NCBI RefSeq assembly: GCF_019649055.1
Contig: NW_026570335.1
Location: 310,001 to 374,000 of the forward strand
Length of the DNA stretch: 64,000 nucleotides
Direction of reading: 5' to 3'
DNA from: Paramacrobiotus metropolitanus
Lineage: Eukaryota > Tardigrada > Eutardigrada > Parachela > Macrobiotidae
Shown here: positions 34,657-56,674 of the stretch, one piece after another
Numbering within the stretch: position 1 is the stretch's first letter
Layout: every line of letters begins with the position of its first letter
Made by a program: the position numbers and the translations under genes
The notes under the pieces: model-generated
What the model saw: only the letters and a program-made list of their open reading frames with translations
Databases searched by the model: none
Told to the model about the DNA's origin: nothing

Positions 34657-34672
34657 TGGTAGCAGCAATGTT
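34657..34672 (+). promoter_or_regulatory. Primer-binding site
   Basis: Starts directly after the LTR with TGGTAGCAG. TGG is the complement of the universal tRNA CCA end, and the nine bases match the complement of the 3' end of eukaryotic initiator methionine tRNA (CTGCTACCA). The match stops after nine bases, so the tRNA assignment is tentative. Confidence 0.65.
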
Positions 34673-35673: not shown

Positions 35674-38016
35674 ATGGGCCAAACCGAAAGCGCCTTGGCC
35701 AAGGTGATGCCTTACACCAGCCATGAGCAACTCCAATGGAGATTGCTCAGTCCAATGGACAGGCGCCAAACTAACGAATATCAGAAGCAGCTGGGGAAGA
35801 GCTATGCCACGCGTGAACCATCGGGACCATACGGTTTCCGTAACGCAAAACAGAGCAGTTCTGACCCAGACGAGCCAAACTCGGCCGGCTCTACGAGTTC
35901 GGTCGAGGCCAGGGCCAGGCGGGACAAACAAATCCTGCCGGCTGACCTGGTGACCAGTGACGAAAGTTTGGACGCCACCCGGGACGACACATTCCAGGAA
36001 GCGTCCGACGGATTGTCCGAGGCCAACCAGCCTCTGGACAGCCAACCTGGTGCCGATAGGACGGCCCAGGCCAACAGTGTCCCTCGGGACTTGGCACAAC
36101 AACCGGCCATACCTGGCTCGGGCCAAGTCCAACCTGAGGCGCCAACGGCGGCCACAGGTGAGGACAAGACACGCACTGATGGACCAGGGCCACACAACTT
36201 GGCCCGGTCCAACCTTGACGTCCAGGATCTGATAACAAGTCCAACCCTACCGGGCTCGGACCAGATTCAACCTGAGGCACCAACGGTGACCAAAGGTGGA
36301 CGCAAGGCCAAGGGCCAAGCCAAAAAGGCTGGTCCAAAGGCACATGACCAGGGCCAGCAGCCCGCGAGTCAGTCGCCACTAATGTTTGAGGACGATGGCT
36401 CAACTTACACAACGCCATCGCCGACCAATGACATCATTGGCGCGTCTGGCCCGTCCAAACCGAACTTGGAGCCAATTGTGGACCTGGCCCAACTTAACAG
36501 GGCCACAGCCAGGATGGACTTAAACCAGCCCTCCTGGGACACAAGCCGCGCCAACGTCAGCCCGCCAAAGCTAATCCAGGCAACCCGGCCCGAGGAGATC
36601 GACGAAGTCGACCAACTGCGGACCACAGTACGGGACCTGACCAAACAGCTGGCGGACATTGCTGAGGCCGCCCTGGCATCCGAACGTTGGATGCAGGACG
36701 AAATCTCCAAGCACAAGGACCCTGCGTCCGAATCGGACGTAGAGGCTAAACGTGTCTCGGCCATACTGGCCCAGACCCAACTTGAGCTAACCCAGCTCAA
36801 GTTGTCACCATGTCCCAATGCTGAGCGAGACCAGCTCAACAGGACAATCCACAGCCTAGAAATGGCCGTGGCGGGACTTGAAGCATTGCTCACCTCTACG
36901 AGGACTGAGCTGGCCAAAGCCAAGGATGACTTGGCTGCGGCCCGGACCACCATTGACGACACTGACTCTGAGGCAGACCGCCTTCAGAGGGAGAACGAGC
37001 GTCTTACCGAAGACTTGGCCAGCCTGCAGGACGAAATCAACCGCCTGCGGAACGGCTACAATCTTCTTTATGAGAGCCACCAGAATCTCATGAAGACGAT
37101 CCAACAAGGAGGCCTGTTGAGCCAAACGGTTCAGCAGAAGGAGGCACAAAACGTGCAACTCCAGCAACAGATCGTTGCCTTCCAAAGCCAGCTCAATACC
37201 GAAGCGACCATTCGGGCACAACTTGAGCAAAACAGCACCATTGGACATCAAAACTTTGTCCAATTGGAGCAGGCCTTCAACCAAGCCAAACAAGTGATCC
37301 AGGGCCAACATGACCGGATCATCACATTGGAGGCCAATAACGCCGGCCTGGTCAAAGATTACCAGGCGGCCACCCAACGTATCACCGAACTCAACGAGGA
37401 CCTGGAAAGGCTAAGCACGGAAAACGCCTGCCTAGATGCGGAGAAATCACATCTCGCAGACATAAACTCCGAGTTGTCCGCAGAACCACCATCCTACCAT
37501 ACCTTTCCAGACTCGGACACACAACGTCGACAAGAAAAAGTCGACGAGGCTCTGCGGCAGGGCCAACGCTTTTACCGCGAGCCAGTGTATCATCAGCAGA
37601 ATTACCATGTTAACATGGCTGTGGAAGGACCATCGGTTGGAGATCCCCCAAAGGGGCCAACCATACCAGCGACTCCCAGCCCAGTGGACCGCGGAACATC
37701 AACGGCGACAGTAACACTGCCGCCACCACCAGTCCCGGTCACCACAACAGCCACTATTGGTCCAACGACAATAGTGACGCCCGCAACGCAGACTCATCTG
37801 TCTACGTCAAGCGGGCTAGGCTTTGACCCAAGCCAGGCGACACCGAGCCGCACTTACCTCGGGTCAGGGCCATCACACTCGTCCTTGTATCCGCCAATAC
37901 TCCCGAACATGGACTTCAACTTTAGTCCGCACCATACGCATGGATGGCGTCCAACGGGGCCACCCAGATCATACCTGGCCAACCAATGTGGGCTCAACAT
38001 CAGCAGGTGCCGCTGA
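35674..38016 (+). CDS. ORF1: myristoyl-motif, coiled-coil N-terminal Gag-like protein
   Basis: 780 codons uninterrupted. It begins MGQTES, which fits the N-myristoylation consensus (Gly2, Ser at position 6) and resembles the start of some retroviral matrix proteins. Residues 40-300 are polar, Pro/Gln/Ala-rich and include two related QPEAPT segments. Residues about 310-600 form a long predicted coiled coil (heptads such as DQLRTTVRDLTKQLADIAE). Residues 610-780 are Pro/Thr-rich. The next frame (capsid) overlaps its end at a -1 offset and is open from 37926. The protein might therefore be the matrix/scaffold part of a Gag polyprotein joined by a -1 frameshift, or a separate protein cut by an indel near 37.92 kb. 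It likely acts in particle assembly or membrane targeting (inference). Confidence 0.7.
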   Translation: MGQTESALAKVMPYTSHEQLQWRLLSPMDRRQTNEYQKQLGKSYATREPSGPYGFRNAKQSSSDPDEPNSAGSTSSVEARARRDKQILPADLVTSDESLDATRDDTFQEASDGLSEANQPLDSQPGADRTAQANSVPRDLAQQPAIPGSGQVQPEAPTAATGEDKTRTDGPGPHNLARSNLDVQDLITSPTLPGSDQIQPEAPTVTKGGRKAKGQAKKAGPKAHDQGQQPASQSPLMFEDDGSTYTTPSPTNDIIGASGPSKPNLEPIVDLAQLNRATARMDLNQPSWDTSRANVSPPKLIQATRPEEIDEVDQLRTTVRDLTKQLADIAEAALASERWMQDEISKHKDPASESDVEAKRVSAILAQTQLELTQLKLSPCPNAERDQLNRTIHSLEMAVAGLEALLTSTRTELAKAKDDLAAARTTIDDTDSEADRLQRENERLTEDLASLQDEINRLRNGYNLLYESHQNLMKTIQQGGLLSQTVQQKEAQNVQLQQQIVAFQSQLNTEATIRAQLEQNSTIGHQNFVQLEQAFNQAKQVIQGQHDRIITLEANNAGLVKDYQAATQRITELNEDLERLSTENACLDAEKSHLADINSELSAEPPSYHTFPDSDTQRRQEKVDEALRQGQRFYREPVYHQQNYHVNMAVEGPSVGDPPKGPTIPATPSPVDRGTSTATVTLPPPPVPVTTTATIGPTTIVTPATQTHLSTSSGLGFDPSQATPSRTYLGSGPSHSSLYPPILPNMDFNFSPHHTHGWRPTGPPRSYLANQCGLNISRCR

Positions 38017-39569
38017 TACCGTTACAGCAGCCAACACCTGTCCCGTCACCACCGGTCAGTCCAGCTCTCACAACCAGAGAGCAAATTAAGAAAATTGCCC
38101 AAGAGATGGGAAAAGCCAACGCAAGAGCTCAAGTCCGCACCGCATTGCCAGAATTTGATGGCAATAAAACCATGGTGAAAGGATGGCTTGCTCAGGTCCG
38201 ACGGATCTGCAAGCAGTCGTCTGATCTGAACCAACCAGATCCGGACTTTATGAGCCGCATTTACGTGGCCCTATCGGACCCTGTAAAAGAATGGTACACT
38301 GGCCAAGCCAATCGTGAAGACGAGGACGGCTGGACAGTGGAAGAGTGGCTCCAAAAATTTGCCACTCGATACGGCGATGACAACCAATAGGCTACTGCCA
38401 TGGGGGAAATCACACACCGGTATTACCAGCACGGATCTGAAACCCCAGAGCAGTATTACGACGCCATGTTGACTCTCCAGACGCGCGCCGGCTTGGACGA
38501 CACTATGACACTTCACTTCTTGAGAGAGAATGTGAAAGAGCCAGAACTGCGCCGCGCTCTGGACATTCGGATACCAAAGTCACCGGCAGAATTCCGGGAC
38601 TACGTCCGGCAATATACCATGGGAAAGCCGGAGTACGAAGGGAAGGCGGGCCGCGGGTACCCAATCATCCGATCGGCCATACAAACGCCACCGGCCCAAG
38701 TCGTACCACAACAACCGGCACTCTATCCCCAGTAGGCTACGCAAGCCCAAATTGAGGCAACGTACGCCGCCATCGCGGCCTTAAACTTAGCCTCTCCACA
38801 ACGTGGGCCTACACCGCCCAACGGCGGTAGTGGCGGCTATGGCCAAGCCCGAAACCAGGGCAACTGTGGCTACAGCAAATGCAACAGCAGCGGAGGACCA
38901 AAGGGCAAGTTCTCCAAGGGCCAAAACGCCAGCTTCAGTGGAAGCCAAGGCGGCAACAGCCCCGGAGGGCAAAACCGAAGCCCAGGAGGCCAGAGTGGCC
39001 AACGCCAGACTCTGAGCCCCGAAGAGGCCCGCAGACAAGAGGACATGTACATCGACCGAGTCGAGCGCATGTTCGAACGATGGGCCAAAGATAGTATCAT
39101 CACTTGCAGCCACTGCCTGTCTGGAAACCACGCAACTGACGGCTGTGGCTATGCAAGCAGACCATACGGCGAAAATCCAAACCGAAAGTGGTATTTGGAT
39201 TGGCGGAAACGTTATCAAAAAGGCTACCCTACCGGGTCAGCCAACCCTAACCGCTTCGGCTTAGTGCCACCCAAACAACCCAGACCACAACGTGGTAATG
39301 GGGGGAACGGCAGCCGAAGACAGTCCACCGGCTCAGGAAATGGGTCTGGTGGCGGCAACCGGCAAAATGGTCCAAAACAGGGATACCAGACACCAGCCAA
39401 CGAAAGGCCAGTGTTACCACCCATACCGGACCAGCTGGTGAAGCCAAATGGCAACGGCGGCGGCGGCCCTAGCCGGGCCAGCCCACCGCGGGAAACGCTT
39501 AAGGTCGGGGAGTATCGGCAACTCACCCGACCTACGACCGGAACCGAAACCGCCGGGCATATCCACTAA
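37926..39569 (+). pseudogene. gag: Gag: capsid and CCHC zinc-knuckle nucleocapsid
   Basis: One frame (0) with two in-frame TAG codons, at 38388-38390 and 38733-38735. The first ATG is at 37944. The capsid part has a Retrotrans_gag-like pattern: LPEFDGN, WLAQVRRI, DFMSRIYVALSDPVKEWY, then after the first TAG a helical EQYYDAMLTLQTRAGL segment and LRRALDIRI. A Gly/Asn/Ser/Gln-rich linker follows the second TAG. A perfect CX2CX4HX4C zinc knuckle (39105-39146) marks the RNA-binding nucleocapsid part, followed by a basic, Gly-rich tail. Both TAGs sit in the context CAR-TAG-GCT-AC. They may be nonsense mutations or readthrough sites. The protein packages element RNA. Confidence 0.85.
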
Positions 39570-40032: not shown

Positions 40033-41381
40033 ACAGCTCACGGACCTTCCTTAACACCAAAAGCATGTTTTCGACCCTACGGGTAGCGGAAACATCACCA
40101 CAGGAAGAGTCTGTCCAACAGGAGCCTCCATCAGCTCAGTACGCTCCTGACGATCCAGGACCAGTGTCGCTAATCCCCATTGTACCGGTGATGCGGGAAG
40201 TGACAGTTGGCCTTGACGAAAATCGCAAACCGGAGACTGTCAGGGCATGGACACACAAAGTCCAAATTGGACCAGTCCACACGCTCGCTATGCTGGACAC
40301 TGTAGCGGAGACATCCCTCATCAGCCAGCAATTCTGCACCGCCAATGGCATCAAAACAGAGCCATTAGGACGGAACACCAAAATCCTTGGTGTTGGCGGA
40401 CAAACCGCCTTTGTGTTCTCCCACTGCTGCACCGTACCGGTGACACTGCAGGGATACAAGAGCCACCACACGTTTTTCGTCCAACCGACGTTAACGGACG
40501 TGCACGTATTACTTGGCTGTGACTATCTCCACTCCAAGTTTACGTTTATCCTCAAGCCAAACGAAGAAATCGTTTGGGACGCGGTAAAGTCTATCCCGAT
40601 ACCAGAGGCACCGGGACCCGACAACGAGGTGCGGATAAATCGGCTTCGCGAACTGACTGTCCAAACTTCTACCTGCCGGGAATGCCTGGACACTATCGAA
40701 AGCCTCATATGGGAGCTGCGCGTCCATAACGCAATCGAGCGGTACATGACTCAATTCCGTGCAGGCATACTCAAGCCAAACCACGGGATAGCAAAGGCTA
40801 TCCCGATACCAGAGGCACCGGGCCAACGGCCGGTGCCTGATAGAGAAATTAAGGAGAAACTGGTCTAGCGATACAAAACTTGGTTTACGGGAGTAAGAAA
40901 TTTCCTGGAATACCGAGCTGACCGACTCCTTGCCCTAGAGGAGGGCTGGCTTGAAGATAAAGGCGAACCACTAACGTGGCCGCAAATTGCCGCACAATAC
41001 GGACCATTCGCCCAAGAACTGGACGATTTGGTCCAAGAAGGAGCATTATGGGAGGACGAACGTCTAGCCCTAGTGTGGGAATACAGGGAGTACCACATGG
41101 AAATGCCGAAGGCACTCCAAAAGATGTGCACGGATCTCTTCGACGATATCATAATGCTTCGAAAACAAGTGGCCCAACACCCTGGCTTAATCGTCAGCAT
41201 ATGGCCAAAATATGACCTGAGCCTGACTAACGTCAGGACCATACCGGAACCATTGCCGGAAGCTGCACCGCATATAGCGACAAAAGTGCGCTTCAATGAT
41301 GGCCCATACCCAGAACAGGGAGGCCATCGAAGGGACTCAGCCAGAACGAGCAGGACCCTTCATCAGAGGAAGTCCAATTGA
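40020..41381 (+). pseudogene. Retropepsin-like aspartic protease with altered active site
   Basis: Frame 0, interrupted by TAG at 40866-40868. The catalytic region (near 40290-40310) reads LAMLDTVAETSLISQQF: the motif is DTV where retropepsins have DTG or DSG, so the active-site glycine is replaced (GTA, 40302-40304). The flap-like and C-terminal strands are recognisable, and VHVLLGCDYLHSKFT corresponds to the usual ILG-D-L signature. Two related IPIPEAPG motifs follow the protease. Past the TAG the frame continues with an unrecognised, helical, Trp-rich segment (LTWPQIAAQYG, ALWEDERLALVWEYREY). Normally it would process Gag-Pol. The Gly change and the stop suggest inactivity. Confidence 0.8.
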
Positions 41382-42253
41382 CTTGCCCTCTATGTGGAGA
41401 CGGCGTTGAAGCGGTAATACGGGCCATACAAACCCGTTCGACTCAACGTTGGGCAAAAGGCCGACCAGCCTCGCCACTCCCTAACGGTTGCCGTCCAACC
41501 ACTTTGGCGGAACCGGACGAACCTGAGAAACAGGAAATCGCAACCGGGACGCCAGAGATCCAAGAAATGGATCTCATGACTAAACCGGCACCTACGGTGA
41601 CCGGCAGGCCGCCAGCCTCTAACGAGGACAAAGGCGAGCCGAAACAAGTGCAGGACGACAAATCCGAGTCTACCAACTCGGACGTCTAAAGCACAAGTGA
41701 CTCACCGGACATGGACTCCGATAATCAATCATCGGAGGAGTCAAGCGACGACGAAGATGACGCAGAAATCCTTCAATTCCGGGCCGAAGCACCCACCATC
41801 CGTCAAACCAGACTGCACCGGCAGATGGAAGGCCTTAAAGAGGAAAATGAAGTCGTGTTCGCGCATAAGCGGTATACCATACCAGCCTACTCAACCTGTT
41901 GGGTCAAGGTCCGCACATACAGAACCATGGACCCGAACCGCCCGATCTACTTTAACACGTTGCGACGACCACACCGCCAGCTCTTACCGATCGAGGCGAA
42001 GGTACATACCCGTCACGACGAGTACGCATGGATCCAGCTCCAAAATAAGTCCATGCGTGACCAGATCCTCCGCAAAGGTGCAAGAATCGGCTACATGTAT
42101 TACAGCGATTTACATGGTGCGGACATCAGGGAGGACGGAGTAGACTGGGACATACCGGCCGCCAGTGCCTTACCATGGCCAAAAGAGGCGGGACATAATC
42201 CCACAAGACAGCGAGTCATAACTGACTACATAATTGACTACGGGCAAGTGTAA
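41378..42253 (+). pseudogene. Acidic spacer region between protease and RT
   Basis: Frame 2, with one in-frame TAA at 41687-41689. It starts with a CPLCGDG zinc-ribbon-like pair of cysteines, then a polar linker, then an acidic Ser/Asp/Glu tract (NQSSEESSDDEDD) and a more structured basic region with YTIPAYSTCWVKVRTYR and DPNRPIYFNTL. The latter resembles the segment found before RT in Ty3/Gypsy polyproteins, where a beta-rich domain follows the protease. The next block is read in frame 1 from about 42253, so a frame change lies at its end. Confidence 0.5.
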
Positions 42254-44370
42254 AAACGGAACTCCTACCGGAGTCCATTACACCAGTCCAAGTCACCATC
42301 GACTTCGAAGTGGACCCAAGGCAGAGGCTAATGTACCTCGGAAGCCAGGAAACTAAACGAACTCTGGCCATGCTCGACGGACCAGTCCAGCACGACGGCA
42401 AATGCTTCACTATACTGGTCTCTAATTACTCCAAAGAGCCCCAGATCCTCCGGAAAGGAGTGGATATGAGCTGAGTAGAGCCATATGAAGCAATTACAGA
42501 CAAGGACGAAGAATTCGCCCAGATCAATTCCCTCCAGACCGGAGAGGAAGATCCTGAAGTGGAGCGCGAAAGCCGTGCTCACATTGCTAACGCACACTTC
42601 GGCGATCACCTGACCGAGGAGCAGACCGCTTTACTCCGTCAGGACTTATGGGAACTCAGGGCCATATTCCCGACGTCCAAAAAGCTTAACGGTGACGCCA
42701 AAGGAGTGACCCACGTCATAGAAGTTGGCGACGCTGCACCAATTAAAATGAACCCAACCCGAACGAGTTGGAAGGGACGAGAGTTCATAAATAAGCACGT
42801 CCGAGAAATGTTGGACCAAGGCGTAATCGAACCGTCCATGGCAGCGTGGAGTTTTCCAGTGGTCCTCGCTTCAAAGAAAAACGGCGACGGGTCCATGGGC
42901 ACCAGGTTCTGCATAAATTACATAAAGCTGAACTCGGTGACCAAGAAGAACAACAACCCATTGCCCAATCCAGACGAACTACTGGATCAATGTGCAGGCA
43001 ACGCCTACTACGGCAAGGTAGACTGTCAGTCCGGATTCTGGCAAATCCCTATGGACCCAGCGTCCATGGACTACACTACCTTCGTGACTCCAGAAGAAAT
43101 GTTCCGGTTCAAACGAATGCCGTTTGGCGTCTGCAATGGGCCAGCCACATTCCAAATGACTATGGACAAGATCATGGCGCCATCACGCAAACAAGGCGGC
43201 GTCTTCGCATACATCGACCACGTGATATTCTTCGGCAAGACATTCGAGGAATTCAAGAAAGCGTTCACAAATACGCTCCTCTGCCTCAGAGATGCCGGAT
43301 TCACGATAAAACCGTCGAAATGCGAATTTGGAATGGAAAAACTCCAATTCCTCGGACACATCCTCAGCAAGGACGGTGTCCATACTGATCCCGAGAAGGT
43401 AGCGGCCATCGCCGAGAAACTACCGCCCAAGACCGAGCGTCAACTTCGCTCGTTCTTTGGACTCGCTAACTACTACCGGAAGTTCATTCTGGGCTACGCC
43501 CAGAAGACTTCCAAGATGTATGAACTCCTGCGGAAGGAAAGTTCAGTGAAGAATGACTGGACCGACGCCCACACCGCTGAGTTCAACGAAATCAAAAAGG
43601 CCCTAACGGAAGCCCCAATATTGGCCAAATTCGATGCGACTAAGCAGACCACCATCGAATGTGATGCAAGTGGCGCTGGCATCGGAGCCATACTCAGCCA
43701 GGACTCGAGGCCAATCGCCTACGCAAGCCGTGTCCTACATGGAGCTGAGAAAAACTACGGCGTGACCGAATGGGAATGTTTAGCCGTAGTGTGAGCCGTC
43801 CAAAAGTTCAAACACTATATTGACCACGGACCTTTCACCGTAAGGACGGACCACAGAGCCCTAACTAATTGGCTTAGATGCGAGTCTAACCGGCCCGGCA
43901 TCAATCCTCGTCTTACTCGATGGGCCCTTGCCTTACAGGGAAGGGACATTACCATCGAGTACAAGCCAGGCACATTCTGTGAAAACGCTGACGCATTGTC
44001 CAGATGGCCACTCGAACGGGACGATGACAAAGGCCCACACGAAGAGTTGGACCAAGTTCCCAATTTCGAGGATTATAAAGACGAGATTCCAGCACGCATC
44101 ATAAAGGTGCGCAGGCTGCAAGTCACGGATGAGGACCCCGCAAACGAATGGGACAAGCCTCTCCTTCCTGATTGCAATGCAATCACAGATTGGGACCAGT
44201 TTAGCACGGCGGACATAAGGGTGATTAACGTACCGGCGCCCGCACCGGGAGAGCCAGAGCCTGAAGTCCCACCGTGCCCAGAAAAAGTCACGGACCGCAC
44301 CGCGCAAGAACTGCGACGGATGCAACACCGTGATCCAACTCTGGCCAAGAAAATCCACGATTTGGAACAT
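42253..44370 (+). pseudogene. pol: Reverse transcriptase and RNase H with altered YxDD box
   Basis: Frame 1, with in-frame TGA at 42472 and 43792. RT motifs in order: RFCINYIKLNSVT, YYGKVDCQSGFWQIPM (first catalytic Asp), FRFKRMPFGVCNGPATFQ, then FAYIDHVIFF where the expected YxDD is YIDH (His codon 43219-43221), then LGHILSKDGV and LRSFFGLANYYRKFI, typical of Ty3/Gypsy. RNase H follows: ECDASGAGIGAIL (Asp), TEWECLAVV (Glu), the TGA where family members have Trp, RTDHRAL (Asp) and NADALSR. Replacement of the second RT aspartate should abolish polymerase activity. The TGA sites fit TGG-to-TGA mutation. This block is continuous in frame with integrase downstream. Confidence 0.92.
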
Positions 44371-46251
44371 TAAAGCGAAATGGACAAGAGGTCCAGATTA
44401 CCCGAACATTACCAGATGGACAGAGGTGTGCTCTACCGACTCACCGAAATCAACGCGAAACTCGAATGGAGGTTCGTTGTCCCTCTGTTCATGCGGAAAA
44501 ACATTATCCAGTCCCTCCATGATGGCAAAACAGGGAACCACTTTGGATACCGCAAGACCATTGAAGCAGCCAAACTCCGGTACTACTGGGACCGCATGAG
44601 CTGCGACATACACGACTACATCGACCGATGCCAGACGTGTATTTTCGGCAAAGTACCGCGGCGAGCTACCTACGGTAAGCTGCAGCCGACCTAAGCTGTC
44701 GCACCTTGGTACCGCGTCTTCGCCGACTTCAAAGGACCTCTACCGGTGACTCAAACAAAGAAATACCGGAACATCGCTGTGGTGGTCGACCAAATGACGA
44801 AGTTCACCATAGCCCGGCCGACCAAGACAAACTCGGCCAAGGAATTTGAGAAGTTCTTTGTCAAAGAAGTCGTACTAAAGTACGGCATGCCACATACAAT
44901 GCACTCCGATCGGGGCACGCATTTCACGGCAAAATCCTTCGCCAAAGTGGCGAAAATCTTCGGCATCGAGCAGACCTTCGGATCCGCGTATCATCCAGAA
45001 AGCCAAGGCCAAGTCGAACGCCAGATGCAGACCATCTGGGACGGAATTCGGAACTTTGGCGGCGCCGGCGACGAACATCGTTGGCACAGGGCCCTACCAT
45101 ACGTGATTTCCGGCATGAACCGTGCCGTTCACGCAACCACTGGATTCTCGCCATACCACGTGTTGTTTGGACGAGAAATGACGATACCGCAAGACGTCCT
45201 CGCTGGGACCAACGTCCCAGAGACTTTCACGACTAACGAACGTTATGTCCAGAGGATGCAGCAGCGCCTGAACCGGGCGCATGAAATTGCGAAAACGCGG
45301 ATCGAAGAAGGGTTCCTACGGGATGCGGCCATCTATAACAAGAAGAAGTCGCAGGCCGAGTTCAAGAAGCGGGACTTGGTCACCCTGAAGAATATGGTGG
45401 ACGACCCGACCAATCCAAACAAATTCGAAGGCGTCTACATTATCATCGGCATACCCAAGCCGAATACTTACTGGATCCGAGAGCGGGACACCGGTGTGGA
45501 ACACACCGTATGTGTTGACCGCCTAAAGCCATACCTTAATCCGGACGGCCCAACTCGCAGAATAACACGCTCAACTAAGAAGAAGGGCGGCGATGTCGAA
45601 CTGGAAGGTACAGAGTCAGGAAGGTGTGCCAATAAGACAGAGCCGGACAAGAGCAAAGATGCCGCTTCTCCGGCAGCTCCTCCCCAGACCAAATTGGAGG
45701 AGCTGCTGAAGAAGCAGAAGCCCGGAAAGGGCCCGTCCAAGAAATTCGTGGCGGAGCAACAAAAGACTTTGCGGATCCCCGGCTATGGCCCACCTGACCC
45801 AAAGATATCAGACCCAGAGCCACCAGTAAAGCGTGGCCCAGGCCGACCTCGAAAGGCCAAACCGGATTTCGAGACACCGGCGCTTCAAAAACTTCAAAAC
45901 CAGCCGTTAGCCGTCATTGACCCGACTTTGGCCCCGGCGGAACCGGAAAAAGGGACATCCGCTACGGACAAGCCAGCGGCGACCGAAGAGCCAAAAGTGG
46001 CCCCGGCGCCCAAGGAAAAGCCCAAAAGACCAAAGACGCCCAAGAAGCCGAAGGCAACCCTTACGGCCTAGCAAGTCCTGGAAGAAGACGTAGTTGCTGA
46101 AGATGAGGCGGATAAAGACTTGCTCACCCGCATAACTACAGGACGGGAGAAATCAGAGAAAATCTTAAAGGGCAAAAAGCAGAAGTCCAGTACAGTCCCA
46201 CCGGACGTACTGGACAAGGCGGTTGATAAGGCTGGACAGAATGACGCATAA
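44371..46251 (+). pseudogene. Integrase with C-terminal AT-hook
   Basis: Same frame as RT, broken by TAA at 44371 and 44692 and TAG at 46069. The zinc-binding HHCC region is at about 44515-44640 (LH-x6-H, then CQTC). The catalytic core has Asp 44725-44727 (FADFKGP), Asp 44908-44910 (HSDRGTHF) and Glu 45016-45018 (QGQVERQ), with exactly 35 residues between the last two, a full D,D35E triad. A GPY/F-like C-terminal module follows (KFEGVYIIIGIPKPNTYWI, VDRLKPYL). The tail of about 200 residues is Lys/Pro-rich and carries KRGPGRPRKAK (45829-45861), a canonical AT-hook. After the TAG the frame stays open to TAA 46249-46251. Integrase inserts the cDNA. The AT-hook could steer it to AT-rich DNA (inference). 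Confidence 0.92.
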
Positions 46252-46505
46252 TTAACTTTAAACTTAGAATTAGTCTAACTAACTCAGCTCACGGTGACCT
46301 AAGCTCAATTAACTGAGCTGCTACCGAAATTAAATAACCTAAACTTAACTAACCTGAACCTTAATGACCAGTAGCTTAGAAGTAGCCTAACTTGGTCCAA
46401 TATCTGACAAGGTAGCTTAGAAGTTGCTAGCCGTACATTGAACTAACCAAGTAGGTAGGAGTCTAACACCGCGTGATTCGTCTCGTGACAGCGCCTCATT
46501 CAACG
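46252..46505 (+). other. Non-coding spacer after pol
   Basis: A/C/T-rich sequence dominated by CTTAACTAAC and CTAACT words, with a GTAGCTTAGAAGT segment repeated (near 46370 and 46411). It separates the pol frame from the first accessory frame. It might hold a splice acceptor or internal initiation signal for the downstream ORFs, but none can be identified. Confidence 0.5.
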
Positions 46506-48833
46506 ATGGAAGGACGCCGACGTACTGATCGCTCTGATAACTCCGACCGCAGCAACCGCACACACCCATATTCACGACCGGAATCCCGGTCGGGCTGATC
46601 TTCCACTCGGTCGTCTAACCGGCCTCCGAGTGTACAGGTACCTAACATTAGGGCCAACTTAACCGCCGAGCAGCTGGCTACTATGTCAGTTGGCCCCAGT
46701 TCACGGGCCGACACACCGCTACCGCGGTCTCAGCCTCTGCCACCTCGAGCCATTCCGCCACAACTTTGGCCGCCAGGGACATTCTCTGACGATACTGGAC
46801 TCCTGGTGAACGCAGCAGTAGCAGGCAGCCAGCCAAGCTCCACGTCGGGCCAAACGGTCCGACGTTATCCTCGCGGCCCAATCGGCCCACCTCAGCCAAT
46901 TCGGTATGGTGGCCTACCGACCGCTTCGGCGAGTCAGCCAGTTTTCACAACTGCGGAAGTCGGGCCAACGGCCACGACTACGCCGGTCCATACTGGACCG
47001 CGGCCACAGTACACTCCGCCGCCATACTACAATCCACATTATGGATATCCACCGTATCCTGCGCCTGGACCTTCAAACCAGCCGCAGCTGGACCCAAACC
47101 AATGGCGATACCCACCACCGTGGATGTATCCGCCTGGACCTTATGGATATCCACCGCCTTACGGCGGATATGGAGCATACGGCCAACCGCCGTATAGCCC
47201 AGCTTCAGCGGCACAACCTGACCCTACGGGCCAGACGCCGTCTGATTCATCCATTGAGCCTCCACGAGCGGGACCGGAAGCGTACCGAACTCCAGCGCCG
47301 CCGGAAACCCAGCCAAGCACATCACAGCTCAACGAGCCAAGTGATTACCCATTACGGGTGTTCGTGGATGGACGGCTCACCATTTACAACCGGCCAGAAG
47401 AGGTTCCACCGGAATTGGCGGCCCAACTTGGCCTAACCGAACCGGCAGCAGCAACAGGACCACCACTGAATCCAGTGTGTGTAGTCAGGCGCGACCAGAC
47501 TGTCCCACCGACAGAACCTGTGTCATCGCCAGAGCCGGAAGACGATGACAATGAAGGGGACGTCCAATGGGACCCAACTACTCCACCATTGCGGATTGAA
47601 TCCCCCACTGAACCTCTGGCCGACGGCCGGACTCCACTCTACCAACTTCAGGACAACCTGAAGGAAGTAGAGAACGCCATCCAAGAATTGGAGGCCATGA
47701 TTCGAGAATTGGACAGGCGCAGCCCTCACTACCGTGAGACGGCCCAGCGCATCATTCTCGATCAGGATGAATTCCGGCGCCTCGCTCATGAACTTAGCGA
47801 GGAAATTGCGACCCGCCAGGCCCAAAATGAGATATTTCCTTTGCATGACCAAACTGGTCAGGCATTGCTGGCGGCATCTCGCAGGCTGAGGGACCAGCTG
47901 GAACAATATCGGAAAAAAAGACAGCTGAGGACCGAAGGATCCGCAGCACTAACACGTCCGCCACCAGCACCATCAGCACCGCCTCCCTCACTGAACCCAA
48001 CAGTCGTAGTTACCGCTACGACAGGGAAAACTTCCGCGCCACCAGTGGCCCAGCCTACGTCTACCGACGAGGCAATGTTGACAGCCACTGGTTTAGATTC
48101 GCAAGAACCGGCATCTTCTCCGTATGACCTGAGGGCCTACCCAGACATACCACCTCTAGAACGCGAACTCCACGCCGTGGAACGCCTCGAAGAGGAAATC
48201 CGTAAGGTTATCAGTGGCCTGAAGGGGGTGGACATCGCCACTTTACGGAGAAAAGTCGCGTTGGACTTAGAATTTCAACGCGTCCTGGAGTACATTACCA
48301 GGATTCGACGGGCCATGCTGCGGTTTATGGATAAGCCATTAAATACGGCTAACGACGCGCCAGCGCCGCGCGATTTCCGTAACCGGCAATACTAGCTTGG
48401 CCTGATCGACGAAGCACTCAGACGCGTGTTGCCCAAACCTCGACCGGGGCAGCCAACAGGCGTCGGACAAACCGGACTTCTCGTACCGACGCGATCCTCA
48501 ACACGCCAACCGGCGGAAGAATTGAGGATGCGAGTCTCGAGAATTATGCGGATCTCGGCTGAAAGATTTGCAGCCGGAACGGCACTAAGTCGACCAGCCA
48601 GCGCGTCGGACACAGAAACCGATAGCGATATTGAGTGGTTCGACATGCCCGATCCAATCCCAGTACCAGGACTTACAGCTCCGCCTGATCACCTGGTCGC
48701 GCCAGAACGACAGGTCCACCCGAGGCCAACCTCACTGGCGCCGCCACCAGCCATAGCGGAACGCCTGGAACTGATATGCGGGGCAACGTTACGCAAGGCA
48801 GACCGGCTTATGCGGACGATTTTCCGGTACTAA
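46506..48833 (+). pseudogene. Accessory ORF A: RS-rich start, PPPY motifs, coiled coil
   Basis: Frame 0 from ATG 46506, with in-frame TGA at 46596 and TAG at 48393, otherwise open for about 775 codons. The start is Arg/Ser/Asp-rich (MEGRRRTDRSDNSDRSNRT). Codons near 46980-47210 encode a Pro/Tyr/Gly-rich stretch with two PPPY motifs (TPPPYYN, YPPPYGG), the PPxY type bound by Nedd4-family WW domains in retroviral late domains. A helical, Glu-rich segment with heptad character follows (near 47630-47830), and a second one near 48140-48340. No enzyme domain and no transmembrane helix is visible. Position after integrase would fit env, but the content does not. Possible structural or budding role is inference only. 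Confidence 0.6.
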
Positions 48834-49488
48834 TCGAACCGGCCAATGCCAATCAACCGGCCCTCGGACTTTACGTCAGCAATGGGACGAAGAACAGGCC
48901 GCAGCGGACCAACGGTTGCGCGAGGCCGACACCGGGCCCATGCAAATGACGATCGTCCAAGCATTGAGGATTCGGCACCTCATCAGCGACGCCGGAGACG
49001 TTGAGCGCCGCATAACCAACCGGATGCAAGAACTCAGTCCATTTGACCCAGAAGCGGTCAGGCTGACAGAACAGCAGCAGAGTCTAGCCCAACGGGTGGC
49101 TCTGCTCAAGGACCTCACTCCTAACCACACGATGCCTACCGGTCCATCGTTAACGGTTATGGACCATACCACAAAATGGATCCGAGAATTCATTGAAGAT
49201 TACTGGAAAGTTCCACGTCCGTCAACGACGGCACGCTCCAGTGACTTTGATCCAGTAAACGAATGGCGACCATCACCAGTGTCTGCGCCAGCACCTTTGG
49301 CCTTGACATACGAACCGGCCGCCTCAACATCAGTTGGACAGCCAATTCCAGCTGAGTTAACCCAGGCCCTACCGGTGCCTGGTCCAACGCCAAGCCAACC
49401 TGAGGACACCTGCTACAGCGGACAGCAGCAAAGAAGTCCTACCGCAGGACGTCGAAATGGACGTGAGCCTGCCCGACAATACCCTTGA
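48834..49488 (+). pseudogene. Accessory ORF B: helical segment and Pro/Ser tail
   Basis: Frame 1, coding-like from just after 48833. The ORF from 48916 encodes a Gln/Glu/Arg-rich helical region (VERRITNRMQELSPFDPEAV, TEQQQSLAQRVALL) and then a Pro/Ser/Ala-rich stretch. It follows ORF A with a +1 frame change and overlaps the start of ORF C by about 30 bp. It could be part of the same polyprotein cut by an indel. Family not recognised. Confidence 0.45.
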
Positions 49489-51035
49489 GACCTGTTCGGA
49501 GAAGCCAGCCGAAGCAGAGCCGACACCAGTCCAACCGGCTGGTGAACCGACAAGCCCAATGGCTGTTGATGCGCCAACGGCGTCATCACAGCCTACACCG
49601 AAGCCAATTGAAGGCGACACATCAAGTGGCACCCTTGTTGTCCGGCCAACGCCCAGAAAATCGACAGGAGGACGGCCAGAACCAGCCACTCCTGCCACAA
49701 CAAGCGGCCCACAGTCGCCCAGATTTAAGAAGAAGAAGAGGACTCCTCCAGAAGCAGAAGAGCCTCCTTCACAACGGTCGCTCCCACCTTGGCGAGGACC
49801 AAGAGAAAACATGGAGCTGAACCGACCAACCAGGCCCACTCCACCAGCATGGAGCGGCCCAGCAAGGGACCCAGACACTCCCGGCCCTACCAGGCCCGGT
49901 CGGTCCATACGTAAACCCAAGGCGACAGAACCGCCGACTTTGATACTTCGTGGCCTACCGGTCAAGAAGAAGAAGTCGCCGCCGAAGAATTTTCCTGGCA
50001 AGGGACACGTGCTTTCACCACCGGAAGCAACGAAGATTCCGTCAGGAACAACTCAGCCTTTGCGGGACGAACCTCCAACGAGGCACCGTATCCGATTAAC
50101 TCAAACGGAGTCATGGGACGACCCGCACAACCGGGCTGTAAGCGAGATCATAGAAGTGGATCTTCGCTTAAACCTGACTGAGGAGGATATGCGCCAGCGA
50201 ATACGCGCCGGCGATCCAACACTAACGGACCGTGAGATTGACCGCATCAACTGAGGTTGTCAGTTGATGGTCCAAGAACGCACAATCCTCATCAGAAAGC
50301 TGATGGCTATGCGGAGCTAGAGCCAGGCACTTCGCCAACGCAAGTTGCCTAGCAAAATCATCGAACACGCCATCTACATCCGTGGCTCACACATTAACCC
50401 AAGGGCATGGACAGTTGAACCGCGCCCACGACCAGGCCAGCCAGTGGAAGACGAACTTCCACCAGAAGAGGCAGAAAGCGAGGACGAACAGCCTCAACTG
50501 CCCGCGGCCTTCTGGGGCGTCTCCTCCAGTGAGGAGTCGGAGATCGAGGAAGACTTGGACGAAAATGTCCAAAGGGCGTTATATGAGACCAGCCAGGTCC
50601 GGCCACCTACAACGAAGGAATCGCCACGCCAAAGCCGATTTCCGTCCAAACGAACTTCTCCTGGGCGCGCCACATCAACTCCGGCGCGAATGCTCAGCAT
50701 GCCGGCCATCGAACCGGCGCCTGCCAGGTTCACACCGAGCCGGCCAGGCAAGACCCCGACCAAAGAGAGGATGGACACCACACCTCCTCCAGAGCCAACT
50801 ATGACCATTACTGTTGAACGAATCGCAGCACCTACGGTGTCTGCAGGCTCAGTACTTGAACCAGTAACGGTCACAGTCAGAACTCCTGCACCAGTGGTCG
50901 CAGAATCGGCCAGAATGAAGGTGCAGATAACACCGGCTGTCTCGGACCAACAAGTGGAAGCCGACGCGGCCTTAATGTCAATGAGCGCTCTCACTCCTAT
51001 CGAGCAGAGACACCTACTGATCCACGCTGACCACA
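49457..51035 (+). pseudogene. Accessory ORF C: basic, nuclear-localisation-like, disordered
   Basis: Frame 2 from about 49457, with in-frame TGA at 50252 and TAG at 50318; the same frame stays open to 51223. It contains two Lys clusters typical of nuclear localisation signals (RFKKKKRTPP and LPVKKKKSPPK), a RLNLTEEDMRQRIRAGDPTL helical segment, an acidic patch (SSSEESEIEEDLDEN) and a Thr/Pro-rich tail. It looks mostly disordered with no recognised domain. Coding-like sequence moves to frame 0 near 51030, giving ORF D. Confidence 0.5.
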
Positions 51036-52058
51036 ATGAACGACGGCAGTATCCGTTTCTTGCTCGCAAAGAGACAGGAGGCCAAGGAGCAGAATCGTAT
51101 GGAAGAATACGACATGATTACGGAAATGCTCCGGTCCTTGGTCCTACGGATGATCGACGACTACCGGCGCCGTCGCAACCAAAACGCCTTCCCTCCACCG
51201 GGGGAAGACTTGCGAATGGCTGAAACCCTGGCGTCAAACGCCCCACCAACCGTGGTGCCGCCAATGGTACAACCACCAGCGGCTTCAGAGCCAATGGATA
51301 CTTCTCCGTCTGGACCAGTGGCCACAGCGCCACAGCCAGAACCAGTTCAACCGGAGGAGCCACCGAAGGCCACTTCGTCGACACAAGAATCGGCAGGCCA
51401 AAGCCAGTCCGGAACAGGGCCAACGGCCGCTGCTCCGATAACACTGACGAACATGCCTGCCAGCGTCGACGATATAACTTTTGGCCGTCCAGTAACCTTC
51501 CCTGCAACGGGGATAATGCAGAACTTCGCACTTGGCATGGGTGTGATTCACTCAGCTAACTCCCAACGGAGTAAGCAGCCAAGGAAAGCCAAGAACCCAG
51601 AGAGGGCCAAACCGGCCTCTCGTCCAACTTCTACTCAACCGAGGGCCAAACCGGCGACTCGTCCAAACTCCCCTCAACCGAGTGGGAGTCAGGCGACCAC
51701 ACCTCGGCCAGCATCAAATCCAGAGGCCGAAAGGAATCGCCAGAAGAAGCAAGCGGCCAAAGACAAGAAAAGTCAAGAGGCCAAAATCGCCCAGCTCGAG
51801 AAGCGGCTATCAGGCGATGAAGACGTCCAAGTCCTATCGGACAGTATGGACAAGTCAGAGGAGGCATCACCGTTTCGCTCATGGCGAGATGAGGAATACA
51901 AGCCAGTTCCCAAAGGTGAACCACCTTCGGAGGAGACAATGCTCCCCTCGCCTGGGGACGACGAAGCTGAGCTTCCGGACCTGGACCAGAGGCCACGCAC
52001 ATTGAGATCCCAACGGGTCCATACGTGCCTCAATGGGTGGCAGCGGCCAGGATTATGA
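51036..52058 (+). CDS. Accessory ORF D: Pro/Gln-rich with basic and acidic ends
   Basis: 340 uninterrupted codons in frame 0. The N-terminus is helical and charged (LLAKRQEAKEQNRMEEYDM, LRMIDDYRRRRNQNAF). The middle is Pro/Ala/Thr/Gln-rich with MPASVDDITFGRPVTFPATG. Basic repeats with PRAKPATRPNS-like units follow, then a Lys-rich helix (QKKQAAKDKKSQEAKIAQLE) and an acidic C-terminus. ORF E takes over in frame 2 near 52000. No known domain. It may be part of one longer polyprotein with ORFs C and E. Confidence 0.5.
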   Translation: MNDGSIRFLLAKRQEAKEQNRMEEYDMITEMLRSLVLRMIDDYRRRRNQNAFPPPGEDLRMAETLASNAPPTVVPPMVQPPAASEPMDTSPSGPVATAPQPEPVQPEEPPKATSSTQESAGQSQSGTGPTAAAPITLTNMPASVDDITFGRPVTFPATGIMQNFALGMGVIHSANSQRSKQPRKAKNPERAKPASRPTSTQPRAKPATRPNSPQPSGSQATTPRPASNPEAERNRQKKQAAKDKKSQEAKIAQLEKRLSGDEDVQVLSDSMDKSEEASPFRSWRDEEYKPVPKGEPPSEETMLPSPGDDEAELPDLDQRPRTLRSQRVHTCLNGWQRPGL

Positions 52059-54073
52059 GACTTGCAACAGGAAGAGACATGTACCAATGTCTCGTCCGAG
52101 TTCTCCAAGCCAGAATGGCACAAGGAGAGGAATTTAGAGGGCTACCGCCAGCGGACCGGGTACTAACGGCACCCTTCATGCGGCGTGTTGTAACTCTCAT
52201 CCTGGACATGGGACTTCTGCTCCGCACACACCGTGACTGGACCATGATGGAGCTTCACGTGCCTCATCGGCCAGCAGGACTTTCCCGTAGCCGGGATTAT
52301 CCTTTCCACCAGATATGCAGGACCATCGCTTACCTGCATAACCCGAGAGGCTCCAACTTAGTTGATATCGTCAGGACCCTCAACGCCCTCTATTATAAAG
52401 GGACGGAGGACCTGGAGAAACTCGAGCGTATCGTACTCGAGGAGTTGCTAGTGTTGGTCAAAGAAGGAACTTTGGAGACGACCAACGCCTACCGGGCAGA
52501 ACCTATCCGCTTCACCATCCCGGGATTTATCCCACAAAAGACCCAACGGTCTCTGTATGTATCACACGACGTGGGTACAAGAAGGGACCCGGACAGAAGG
52601 AAAGCGGTTGGACCGCCGAAAGACAAGTTGACAGGCAGAGCCAAGGAGGCATACTTGATCTCCCAAGTGGCCAAACTGCCAGGTCCAAAGAAATTGCCGG
52701 TAGAAAAACCTCCCCGACCATCAGTCACAAAAAGAGAAATAGCTGCACGGCGGGAAGCGGAGGAAGAAATGCGCGCGTCCGGAATTCGGCCCGTGCCCAG
52801 GGACACTGTGTCACTGCCTAATGCAGCAGGCCAGTCCAGACCTCCTTCGCCAGCCCTATCGGCCACATCCACAAAGAGCCGAAAGGCCACGGCCACAAAG
52901 AAAAGAGGGAAAAAAGATCCCTCACCGCAGCCAAGTGATTCGGACTCTGAGGACTCACAACCGGAGGACTCAGAGGATGAGGAGCAAGAAGAGCCGGACC
53001 AGGACCAAACCATGGAATTCCAAAAGTCCGACTCTGATGACGATGATGACCAGAGCCCTGGTAAATTGACCATGGATGTCCCACCGGACCATGACATGGA
53101 AATCCCACCTGGTGATGAAAATCAGCCACCTAACGGTGACCAGGACATGGAGGACCAGGGCGACACAGAAGGCGCGAGCCAGGACCAAAGTGCCGTAGAT
53201 GGCGCCGATCGGGAAAGTCAGGCCAGCGTAGAAAGTGCTGAGCTAAGTGGAAGGGGTGCACAGCCCGAACGGGCCAGAGTGCGAAACTCTACCTCACCAG
53301 AATCAGATGATGGTGAGTTACAGTGGACATTGCCCAATCCATGCCCGGCCAAACCGCGCATCGATTATGTGCCGCCACCGAGAACCACAGTGGCGAGGAA
53401 ATGGCCTGGCGGAGATCCATCAAAGAAGCCGAAGATCTCCAACACGGACGAGACGTGGGCATACATCAAGGCCGCCTTAAAGGCGTTGTCCCAAACGGGT
53501 ACAACCCTTGCTACAGGAGGCTTGGCCTTCCAACTTATCCAGAAATGGAATGGTCCACCAGTATCCAAGTCCTAGGTTATGAAATACATTAGAATGGCCT
53601 ATGAAGAAGGAGTCATCCTTCGGACCCATCTGCCCAACATGCAGATGTTCTAAACGTTTCCACCGGAAAGACGTGATGATGCGCCTCAAGGCTACTGGGA
53701 ATGGCGAAATGCCATCTTGGCGGTACTGACCACCACGCAACATCCCTTGGGCCTGACAAGAGGTGAAATGGCCAACCAACTCCTTGGACGATACAACGTA
53801 CAAATCTCGACATACGACCCTCAGCTGACCGACGGGAATGAATATCCCCCTAGTCGCCCCAACGGGTTGTACTACCTCAGCGAGGACGTACGATACGTCG
53901 TTAGAAAGATGCTGCGCGAAGGTTGGCTCAAGCAGACTGTTGATGAGCCAGAAGCCCAGCAGCGGTATGCGATGAAGAATAACCCACCAGATCGCTATGG
54001 CCCTCGTCCCACCGAACCCGCCACCTTGGCCTCTACCAAGTCCAAGAAGAAGCGGCGTACTTACCATCAGTGA
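52000..54073 (+). pseudogene. Accessory ORF E: two winged-helix-like segments flanking an acidic region
   Basis: Frame 2, with in-frame TAG at 53573 and TAA at 53651. A first compact helical segment (about 52290-52525) reads RTIAYLHNPRGSNLVDIV and ends VLVKEGTLETT. A second (about 53680-53945) reads AILAVLTTTQHPLGLTRGEM and ends KMLREGWLKQT. The two share the order helix, (H/N)P-x-G turn, helix, long helix, then an (E)G-x-L-x-x-T wing-like end, as in winged-helix DNA-binding folds. Between them are a Lys-rich part and a long Asp/Glu/Gln-rich acidic tract (near 52920-53260). The C-terminus is basic (SKKKRRTYH). A chromatin or nucleic-acid role is a reasonable guess, but no family is recognised. 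Confidence 0.5.
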
Positions 54074-54292
54074 CCTAGGCGTAGAACTCGCATAGGGTCT
54101 AGGGGGTGATCCCGATATAATTCACCGGGCAAGAAAAGCCTAGTTAACAAATAACATGTAAAATCATAGGGACGTAAAAACATAGGGCGTAATTATCATA
54201 GGGACCCGTCATAGAAAGCGGATTTAACCTTATTCTGCAAGTTTCATTTCTGTTACCACAGAGAATGGGACTTACAACACCGCAGCAGAAGT
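54074..54292 (+). other. Spacer with repeated CATAGGG motifs
   Basis: Non-coding gap between ORFs E and F. CATAGGG occurs near 54092, 54166, 54181 and 54199 with AT-rich spacers. The same word occurs near 35545 ahead of ORF1. A regulatory or splice-related role is possible but unproven. Confidence 0.4.
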
Positions 54293-54984
54293 ATGAGCCG
54301 CGATGCTCGGATTGCAGACGCAATAGCGGAGACCAGAACCGCCGGGACAATTCCTCAACGGGAATTGTTCCCTTGTGCATACCACCTGCGACCGGGCTTC
54401 CGCGACGAGAGTGACCGAGCCTACTGCTTCTACTTAGAAGTAGTGAGAAGCAACTTCGACGCATATTGCCACATGACCAGCCGCGACGGAAGCCACCTGA
54501 TTCCCCTACTGAGGGACCACGAGCAGATAGAGATCTACGATCTCTACATGCAACGTAGTTGCGCCCGACAACCTGGCTGGAGCAGTACCGGAACCCCGAT
54601 TCCTCCACTCAGCCAATCGGCTCGAGAACGGAAGGACGAACGGGACCGGGAACGTCGATCCCGCAACTCGGGATCTGACCAGTCCTCAGGGCGTGGCCCA
54701 ACGGCCGCCCCGAGCAATTACGCACACCAGTCGCATCAACAGCGGCCATCATCAGGCTCTCGATCCTACGGATACGAGCTGCCTATACCCATGGAATACA
54801 ACCATGGGTTCGAAAAACGATCCTGGAAAACATCAACAAAGCTATGGTTGACCAGGTGGCCAAGCAGCTGATGGAAGGTGGACTGTTAGATGCCTTGAAA
54901 GGCCAATACGCCTACCGGCGCCCACAACTTAATTTTTTGGAGTTTGGCCCGGCTAACCTGATGTTTTCGTCAGAAGCCACTTAA
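54293..54984 (+). pseudogene. Accessory ORF F: Tyr/Arg-rich C-terminal protein, frameshifted
   Basis: Frame 2 from ATG 54293 to about 54800. Coding-like sequence then continues at a -1 offset to TAA 54982-54984. The first part has aromatic and charged residues (DESDRAYCFYLEVVRSNFDAY, in a CAYHLRPGFR context) and a basic RERKDERDRERRSRNS segment. The final part contains a short helix (ILENINKAMVDQVAKQL) and a hydrophobic end (FLEFGPANLMF). No domain recognised. One indel near 54805 would explain the frame change. Confidence 0.45.
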
Positions 54985-56286
54985 TTTTGTTATGGCCACG
55001 GTCTCAGGGAAACCTACCCTGCCTATCTGACATGGTAGCTAACTCATGGCCCACGGCCAGCGAAACGGTCCAACTTTGGCCCGCCATCAACCTTGGACCG
55101 TCGAAAAAACGACGAAGTCCATTTGGCCCGCCATCAACCGCGGACAGTCGAAAATCGACTAAGTCTTTTGGCCCGTCCAATGACGTGGCCACTGAAAAAT
55201 TGACTAAGTTTTTTGGCCCGTCCAACGACGTGGCTCATCAAAAAACGACTAAGTCCACATCGGAGAGCCAAACCCGGTTATACAGGACCCACACCCCTCT
55301 AAAGGCTGGAAGCAAGGCCATGCCATTCCGGAACCCTGTATCCCGGTCCAGGGCATGTCAGAGACCGAGTTTGGACCGCCCCAACGGGTTTGGTCCATTA
55401 CACCACTTGGTCCTCGGACTTAGAAATTTTTCCATTATGGCCCTCCTGGACTTAGAAAATTTTTGGACCTAGGCGCATGACCAAACCGGCATGCAAGGAC
55501 AAAACCGGTCCAAGTTAGAGACCCATATGGGCCATCCAAACGGAATCGGTCCAAGCATACTATTTTGGTCACAGGAGCACCTCTCCTGTCCAGAGACACC
55601 ACTTTGGCCCACCATGGACCGCCCAACCGGGCTTGGTTCACCACAATCAGGAAGGGGACAACTTGTCCTTGCGCATGCAACCGTGCCTTCCTTCTACCGC
55701 ACCGCTGGATTTACTTCACTGGACCCCTGTGGACATCTCTGGGAACCGTCGCCCCGGATTCACAGGACCAGACCTATCCTATCGGATAAAGCGGACCGTT
55801 GACTAGGACCCCCGTGGACAAATGCGGCCCTGTGGTATATCTAGTCGGAATAAGCCTTTTGTTTTGTCTAGTTTTTTTAACCAAACCTGGTTTTTCTAGA
55901 CTTTATTAACCAAAGATGGTGTTTTTATTTAGCCATTAACCAAAGGAATTGGCTTTGGGATCTCTAACTATGATCTTATTTTAATTCTCACTGGAATTGT
56001 GATTTTTCTATTTCGATGTTTAACCAATGAGCCTTATAAACTTTATTTTTTTACCTGTTCGACCAACCAAGCCTTCAAACCACACTGGAACCCCCAGCAA
56101 CCAGAGTGCACTCCAGATTTCGGCCGTTCGGTGCACTGCACCGCGGGTCTGGAGGAAGCGACCCAACCGGGTTAGAGACAAAGGTGCATCCGGCCCTACC
56201 GGGTATCGGATCCTGGCACCCTACCGGGTTGGCCAGGGGCAGAGTCGGAAGGTGCTCGCAGGAGCTCCCACTCCCGCCCAGAGGCA
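54985..56286 (+). other. 3' untranslated region of the retrotransposon
   Basis: No coding sequence is supported. About 55076-55258 holds four diverged repeats of roughly 46 bp, each with TTTGGCCCG and GACTAAGT. 55850-56040 is AT-rich with four TTAACCAA repeats. A GCACCCTACCGGGTTG 16-mer at 56216-56231 is identical to 34909-34924 in the leader. No strong polypurine tract precedes the 3' LTR; the adjacent bases are CCCAGAGGCA. Confidence 0.65.
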
Positions 56287-56670
56287 TGTCAGAGACCGCT
56301 CACTCGAGGCGGTAGACACCTCTTGTGGCTTTGCTCTGTCGCCCGCCCGCACATGGCTACTCCATTCGTGCCGCGCTATTACGCTGCTCACTCAGCGTAT
56401 ACTTTGTCTACGCTGACCAATCAGCGCATTTCTGCACTCTTGGGGGCGTAGCCCAGCGCTCGCGAGCGATCCCATGCTTTACGGCATCAGCTGTTGCATA
56501 CCTGCAGCACGCTGCATCATTATCACTTTACCGACTTGCGCGCTCGCAGCTACTTTTCCACAGCATATGCCGCATTGGTTTTTTCTGTGTTTGTTTGTGG
56601 TTGCTTTATTGTTTCACAATAAAGGCATATTTGCCCCCATTTTCGCTCTGCTTCCGTGTCATATCTGACA
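56287..56670 (+). repeat. 3' LTR
   Basis: 384 bp, TGTCA to TGACA, with AATAAA at 56618-56623. Differs from the 5' LTR by seven substitutions and one extra T. Confidence 0.95.
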
Positions 56671-56674
56671 AGGG
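56671..56674. repeat. Target-site duplication, right copy (AGGG)
   Basis: AGGG directly follows the 3' LTR and matches 34270-34273. The sequence after it (ACAATACGGA) continues the interrupted LINE and matches the empty-site paralogue on the minus strand near 63462-63471. Confidence 0.85.

Follow-up and report, generated by a model that had tools for sequence, protein, structure and literature searches.

A stretch of 64,000 nucleotides from the eutardigrade Paramacrobiotus metropolitanus (contig NW_026570335.1, positions 310,001 to 374,000; hereafter the window, whose positions serve as coordinates) contains a 22.4-kb Ty3/Gypsy insertion at 34274-56670, with the 4-bp target-site duplication AGGG on both sides. 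The insertion belongs to a family of ~25-kb Ty3/Gypsy elements of P. metropolitanus with the gene order Gag, Pol, ORF4, ORF5. Purifying selection has preserved both open reading frames (ORFs) after pol during multiplication of the family. In the window copy, the post-pol region consists of a decayed ORF4 and a truncated ORF5. The module is real and conserved and, as far as seen in the literature that we found, undescribed. Among the papers listed for tardigrade long terminal repeat (LTR) retrotransposons, Metaviridae and gypsy elements and for the P. metropolitanus genome, no title or abstract start describes the element. A paper on tardigrade repeats covers Hypsibius exemplaris and Ramazzottius varieornatus; Paramacrobiotus is unnamed in the available part of its text (PMC11071193).

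ORF4 and ORF5 across the family

The 169.8-Mb P. metropolitanus assembly was searched with window segment 51971-53572. Only the best candidates were scored, and one copy may yield several rows; on this basis there were 87 match rows with 51-100% identity. The search with ORF5 gave 71 rows. Of the 87 ORF4 rows, 38 were checked against 40 scored LTR places: an LTR stood at the expected place in 20 of the 38, and eight rows, the window copy included, lay inside a same-strand LTR pair. The 40 places formed nine same-strand pairs. Those of five other copies span 24.6-25.1 kb and that of the window copy 22.4 kb; three more span 17.6, 26.1 and 28.8 kb. The post-pol pieces of 20 copies were fetched for closer analysis. 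They were picked among the best matches and are thus a biased sample, and two of them are cut by contig ends. The 3′ end of integrase lay upstream of ORF4 in 16 of the 20 loci, and two of the remaining four are cut by a contig end.

ORF4 was a single open frame of 2,540-2,559 codons (stop to stop) in five of the fetched copies. The shared ATG lies 13 codons into this frame, and the protein has ~2,530-2,540 amino acids (aa); two copies have an additional ATG seven codons upstream. In one intact copy, the ORF4 frame had no stops, whereas each of the other five frames had 55-101. ORF5 was open for 666-680 codons in 11 of the 20 copies and encodes ~655 aa from its own ATG. Near its N-terminus it has a conserved C-x2-C followed by C-x2-H, a possible zinc site (locus L033:52-2076 and relatives), and its C-terminal part is strongly conserved.

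All ten pairs of the five intact ORF4 copies had a ratio of nonsynonymous to synonymous substitution (dN/dS) of 0.19-0.24, at dS of 0.086-0.518. When one pair was simulated under neutrality with the transition bias seen in the data (200 runs), dN/dS was 0.69-1.02, with a mean of 0.83. Per 100-codon window, pN/pS (pooled from four pairs sharing sequences) was 0.10-0.46 and was lowest in codons 1-200, 401-700 and 1201-1500. For ORF5, 66 pairs of 12 sequences were compared, and median dN/dS was 0.16 (range 0.12-0.21) among the pairs with dS>0.1. By window (45 pairs) it was 0.12-0.37, lowest in alignment columns 376-600, except for the final few codons, where it reached 1.23. For the 3′ end of pol, the median was 0.30 in up to 36 pairs, a value raised by frameshifted ends and usable only as a rough yardstick. 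By this yardstick, ORF4 and ORF5 are constrained at least as tightly as the pol 3′ fragment.

An initial annotation of this DNA had described an extra coding module after pol, and the many copies and the purifying selection support it. The outcomes that it had named as evidence against such a module did not materialise: other copies exist, their evolution is not neutral, and the sequence is not unique to the window copy. The annotation had also seen long sense-strand coding frames after integrase from 46506, which is indeed the ORF4 ATG common to 16 other copies. Its division of these frames into six coding blocks (A-F) has to be replaced by one giant ORF4 in pieces and a truncated ORF5. The long sense frames lie at 46599-48392, 48396-48830, 48775-49485, 49361-50251, 50321-51220, 51021-52055, 51971-53572, 53654-54070 and 54215-54868. 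ORF4 of another copy aligned to 46506-54070 in five collinear pieces with 80-90% identity, offset by small indels and interrupted by stops; by alignment with ORF4 of other copies, the broken gene occupies 46506-54073. ORF5 of another copy aligned at 54265-54927, where only its first ~220 of 654 residues were found, in broken form. The frameshifts and stops in ORF4, the ORF5 remnant and the length of 22.4 kb versus 24.6-25.1 kb indicate that the window copy is decayed and shortened.

The window copy also showed a change of affinity along its length. At ~51.7-53.2 kb it was nearer one subfamily (86-95% versus 75-84% identity in 500-base windows), and beyond ~53.2 kb it was nearer the other (89-93% versus 75-81%); before 51.7 kb the difference was small or mixed. 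This copy is thus a mosaic of two subfamilies with a switch near 53.2 kb, formed via template switching or gene conversion.

Splice-like signals upstream of the two genes

The spacer between pol and ORF4 is stop-rich and indel-rich. Within it, only 2 of 30 columns at -45 to -15 relative to the ORF4 ATG were variable (17 sequences), compared with 62 of 100 at -160 to -60. This conserved block, at 46461-46491 in the window copy, contains CTAAC followed by CAG. Before ORF5, 1 of 30 columns was variable at -30 to 0 (21 sequences), compared with 14 of 30 at -60 to -30; counts further out are inflated by gaps because many sequences end there. The ORF5 block (54242-54261, TTTCATTTCTGTTACCACAG) has a pyrimidine-rich run and then CACAG. 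Both blocks resemble the 3′ splice site consensus.

The ~1-kb leader of the window copy has a single GTRAG, in the splice-donor-like site CCG/GTAAGAC at 35097-35106. A leader of 1 kb was found at 40 scored places. When exact flanks were required, the central four bases were GGTA in 26 of 26 places. A looser search (24-mer, up to three mismatches) found CCGGTAAGA unchanged in 39 of 39, with nine of the other 15 positions varying. This pattern makes it probable that ORF4 and ORF5 are translated in the manner of env from spliced subgenomic mRNAs, the leader donor at 35100 being joined to the acceptors at 46491 and 54261 before the respective ATGs.

Structure of the insertion and other features of the window

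All element features lie on the forward strand. The 5′ LTR (34274-34656, TGTCAGA...TTTGACA) and the 3′ LTR (56287-56670) are 383-384 bases long with TGTCAGA...TCTGACA-type ends, and differ by seven substitutions and one indel. The AGGG duplications occupy 34270-34273 and 56671-56674, and a putative primer-binding site (TGGTAGC...) directly follows the 5′ LTR at 34657-34675. A broken Gag region at 35674-39566 begins with MGQTES and comprises parts that we take to be an N-terminal extension, a capsid-like part and a CCHC knuckle (CSHCLSGNHATDGC); Pfam gave no match for the Gag region of the window copy. Several of 61 match rows place the frame at 35596-38013 inside a longer open frame (~1,415-1,430 codons), so that the simplest reading makes it the N-terminal portion of a long Gag and not a gene of its own. 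Pfam placed aspartic protease at 40257-40532 (RVP, E value 7.2e-5), reverse transcriptase (RT) at 42892-43365 (RVT_1, 1.1e-25), RNase H at 43558-43938 (RT_RNaseH_2 / RT_RNaseH, spanning a stop) and the integrase zinc-binding domain and core at 44482-44997 (H2C2, 6.1e-18; rve, 7.7e-14), which is the Ty3/Gypsy order. In a comparison restricted to solved structures, the best match of RT was Ty3 RT/RNase H (E 2.5e-53), followed by Ty3-G Gag-Pol.

The peptide QILRKG is encoded twice between protease and RT (42061-42078 and 42441-42458), and looks like a duplicated pre-RT segment. A TATCTGACATGGTAGC-like motif, comprising the LTR end and the first bases after it, occurs at 34648-34662, 46401-46415 and 55024-55038. 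It lies 104-106 bases upstream of the ORF4 ATG in 13 of the 16 loci having that ATG (L009-L048), and often recurs ~235-265 bases before it; 16 of 20 pieces have it again ~0.75-0.8 kb downstream of ORF5 (up to two to three mismatches allowed). These may be internal copies of the primer site. The sense strand of the element has 17.9% T, 27.6% A and ~54% GC; the left flank has ~42% GC and balanced A/T. None of 4,227 Rfam families reached threshold within 34200-56800.

Elsewhere in the window, an unbroken 486-codon frame on the reverse strand (7698-9158) matched Phage Tail Collar (E 3.2e-7), here in an animal genome, and Gp10_C weakly, under the cut-off (E 2.7e-4). A 208-codon frame at 21603-22229 contains about three repeats of a 93-base unit. 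A cluster of direct (~1,340-base spacing) and inverted repeats lies at 23754-26419.

Protein features and possible roles of ORF4 and ORF5

ORF4 contains 13.5% proline. Two PPPY motifs (residues ~171 and ~216; 47016-47162 in the window copy, placed by residue number) are both present in 17 of the 20 copies. Copies other than that of the window have the basic clusters KKKR, KKRK, RRRR and KKKRR and an acidic DDDDD tract. In a 19-residue hydropathy scan of one ORF4 and one ORF5, no segment exceeded 1.6 (maxima 1.31 and 1.39, respectively). The PPPY motifs, the basic clusters resembling nuclear localization signals (NLS), the acidic tract and the lack of transmembrane or env-like features, all listed in the initial annotation, were thus found again. 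Its coiled coils were represented by weak Pfam matches to coiled-coil-type families only.

The annotation had also proposed winged-helix-like segments, and here the matches were weak. Full-length ORF4 and ORF5 gave nothing convincing against Pfam and PDB. When ORF4 was cut into segments, the part at 51986-52528 matched linker histone in two copies (E 0.24 and 0.057) and a MarR chain in a profile comparison with PDB (E 0.25). The C-terminal segment (53432-54031) matched RPA_C in one of two copies with E 8.5e-4 and 20.5 bits, under the cut-off of 22.6. RPA_C, linker histone and MarR are winged-helix domains. No match was seen between the two ORF4 segments. The C-terminal 202 residues were modelled with the order helix-helix-helix-strand-strand at a predicted local distance difference test score (pLDDT) of 43; some low-ranked Foldseek matches resemble winged-helix regulators, but we give them no weight. 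ORF4 residues 707-801 matched a solved VP1/VP0 structure (E 0.0043), which may be chance.

A large protein search scored several thousand candidates per query from an annotation-dependent database restricted by a length window and a word filter. One ORF4 segment retrieved four P. metropolitanus proteins; there was nothing for ORF5 or whole ORF4, and the whole-ORF4 search missed even known copies. The protein searches made yielded no relative outside P. metropolitanus, and no other tardigrade genome was searched. A scan of viral contigs with RT and ORF5 gave no confirmed relative. BLASTP gave no support for ORF4 as a duplicate of the N-terminal part of Gag or of ORF5, and this idea was rejected (best E values 0.062, within a coiled-coil-like stretch, and 0.31). 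Known enzymes of the GDSL and DEDDy types were rejected because neither full-length protein had such a Pfam match.

Non-env ORFs after pol are already known in LTR elements (PMC5408684, PMC7264820, PMC11963269, PMC10309623), as are giant Gypsy elements (PMC6431247); the comparisons that follow concern the available parts of these papers. The initial annotation allowed canonical elements either nothing beyond integrase or a single env-like ORF, which is therefore too narrow, given the published CERV, bdelloid ORF3s and plant additional ORFs (aORFs). CERV, a 517-aa protein of the Caenorhabditis elegans Gypsy/Ty3 element Cer1, is encoded after pol, is not env-like, is spliced and nuclear, has a KRKK NLS and is needed for export of genomic RNA (PMC10309623). 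ORF4 resembles it in being large and non-env, in lying between pol and the 3′ LTR, in its basic NLS-like cluster and in having no obvious homologues outside its own group; CERV is spliced, and ORF4 is predicted to be (PMC10309623). However, the N-terminal half of CERV shares peptides with Gag via five-exon splicing, whereas ORF4 has ~2,530 aa, starts at an ATG of its own and is followed by ORF5; the likeness is one of description only (PMC10309623). The planarian Burro elements are likewise invertebrate and Gypsy-like, with an internal region near 25 kb and large extra coding capacity (PMC6431247). Their extra domains (BIR, ankyrin, env-like) lie mostly in one 4,873-aa polyprotein (PMC6431247), whereas ORF4 and ORF5 are separate, unrecognised frames after pol, ORF4 behind a stop-rich spacer, in an element with LTRs of ~0.38 kb. 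The ORF3s of bdelloid rotifer LTR elements are also non-env genes after pol (PMC5408684), but encode GDSL esterases or DEDDy exonucleases, for which ORF4 and ORF5 had no Pfam match. Plant aORFs (Retand, Grande, Bagy2) are conserved between pol and the 3′ LTR, and for some of them a possible DNA-binding domain or splicing is described (PMC11963269; PMC7264820). Those described are antisense or env-like, unlike the sense ORF4 and ORF5, and the Retand region between pol and the 3′ LTR is 2.9-6.6 kb compared with ~10 kb here (PMC11963269; PMC7264820).

A regulator or RNA handler is suggested by where ORF4 lies, by its apparent splicing, by the absence of membrane features and by the hints of nucleic-acid binding. 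We tentatively favour, at somewhat less than even chances, a soluble nucleic-acid-binding regulator rather than an envelope: a long, proline-rich protein with basic clusters and a few possibly folded, winged-helix-like parts, which would act in the nucleus on the very long genomic RNA of the element or on its DNA. Export help of the CERV kind would be needed for a 25-kb RNA that contains internal splice sites, and ORF4 might export or protect the unspliced RNA, as CERV does in Cer1. A partner protein might be ORF5, with its C-x2-C/C-x2-H pair and strongly conserved C-terminal part. For the account as a whole (a decayed copy of a ~25-kb family, spliced ORF4 and ORF5, and a role in RNA handling), we see the chances as evenly balanced.

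Several points weigh against this account. The splice-like signals are conserved and suggest splicing, which itself is a prediction from sequence. All 13 flank bases of the stricter donor pattern were kept in only 16 of 41 leader rows, and the donor search admits only sites within three mismatches of that of the window copy. Two control slots in the leader gave different results: one was constant in its 10 leader places and the other varied in 14 of 45 places. The ORF4 acceptor is preceded by a poor pyrimidine run. In the protein, the RPA_C match is limited to one of two copies, no stretch passes alone and the other profile matches are non-significant. The C-terminal model had no Foldseek match at E<=0.001, and the ORF5 fold prediction had a pLDDT of 29. 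Particle release or binding of ubiquitin ligases would explain PPPY motifs no less well than a function in the nucleus. CERV would be the best functional analogue, but was set beside ORF4 by description, not by sequence.

The main rival is that ORF4 and ORF5 are matrix- or tegument-like particle components that pack or release the 25-kb genome, with PPPY recruiting WW-domain ubiquitin ligases. Genome size would suit this reading, as would the retention of both motifs in most copies, the first in a 100-codon stretch with pN/pS of 0.13 and the second in one with 0.32. The Gag frame contains PPSY, and its MGQTES start looks like an N-myristoylation signal. However, ORF4 has no similarity to the N-terminal part of Gag or to ORF5, its basic and acidic clusters and winged-helix-like hints agree with activity in the nucleus, and incorporation into particles is conjectural. 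We regard this reading as unlikely on balance; the capsid-associated role suggested by the initial annotation is possible. Another reading, also unlikely, has ORF4 attached to host chromatin or DNA, where it would direct how the element is transcribed or integrated: the winged-helix-type matches and basic clusters agree with such a role, but the matches are under curated cut-offs or non-significant and the model is of low confidence.

Three further readings have little probability. In a new replication plan for very long LTR elements, a giant ORF4 protein could organise and export the ~25-kb RNA while internal copies of GACATGGTAGC, an LTR-end/primer-site motif found before ORF4, after ORF5 and at the true primer site, add start or transfer points for reverse transcription and ease the length limit; this is very unlikely. 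About as improbable is capture of tardigrade host coding sequence that is no long-term gene of the element. In its favour, the searches made showed relatives in P. metropolitanus only, and since the LTR check covered 38 of 87 rows, a host paralogue may be among the match places. Nevertheless, many diverged copies carry the region, the checked rows adjoin integrase and LTRs, selection is seen between copies, and capture unique to the window copy is refuted. A diverged envelope (fusion protein) in ORF5 or ORF4, making the element an errantivirus-like retrovirus, would account for the post-pol position and the apparent acceptors just before the ATGs. We consider it extremely improbable, and env was rejected as a candidate, because neither protein has a hydrophobic segment and Pfam gave no envelope match.

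Mobile elements of the phylum Tardigrada have received little study. In this element, some two fifths of the internal length code for two proteins under selection, for which the searches made gave no convincing relative. At ~24 kb between LTRs of 0.38 kb, the internal region nearly reaches the 25 kb given for Burro (PMC6431247). The many natural copies allow one to ask how an LTR element passes the usual length limit, and whether CERV-like regulators arose more than once in Gypsy elements.

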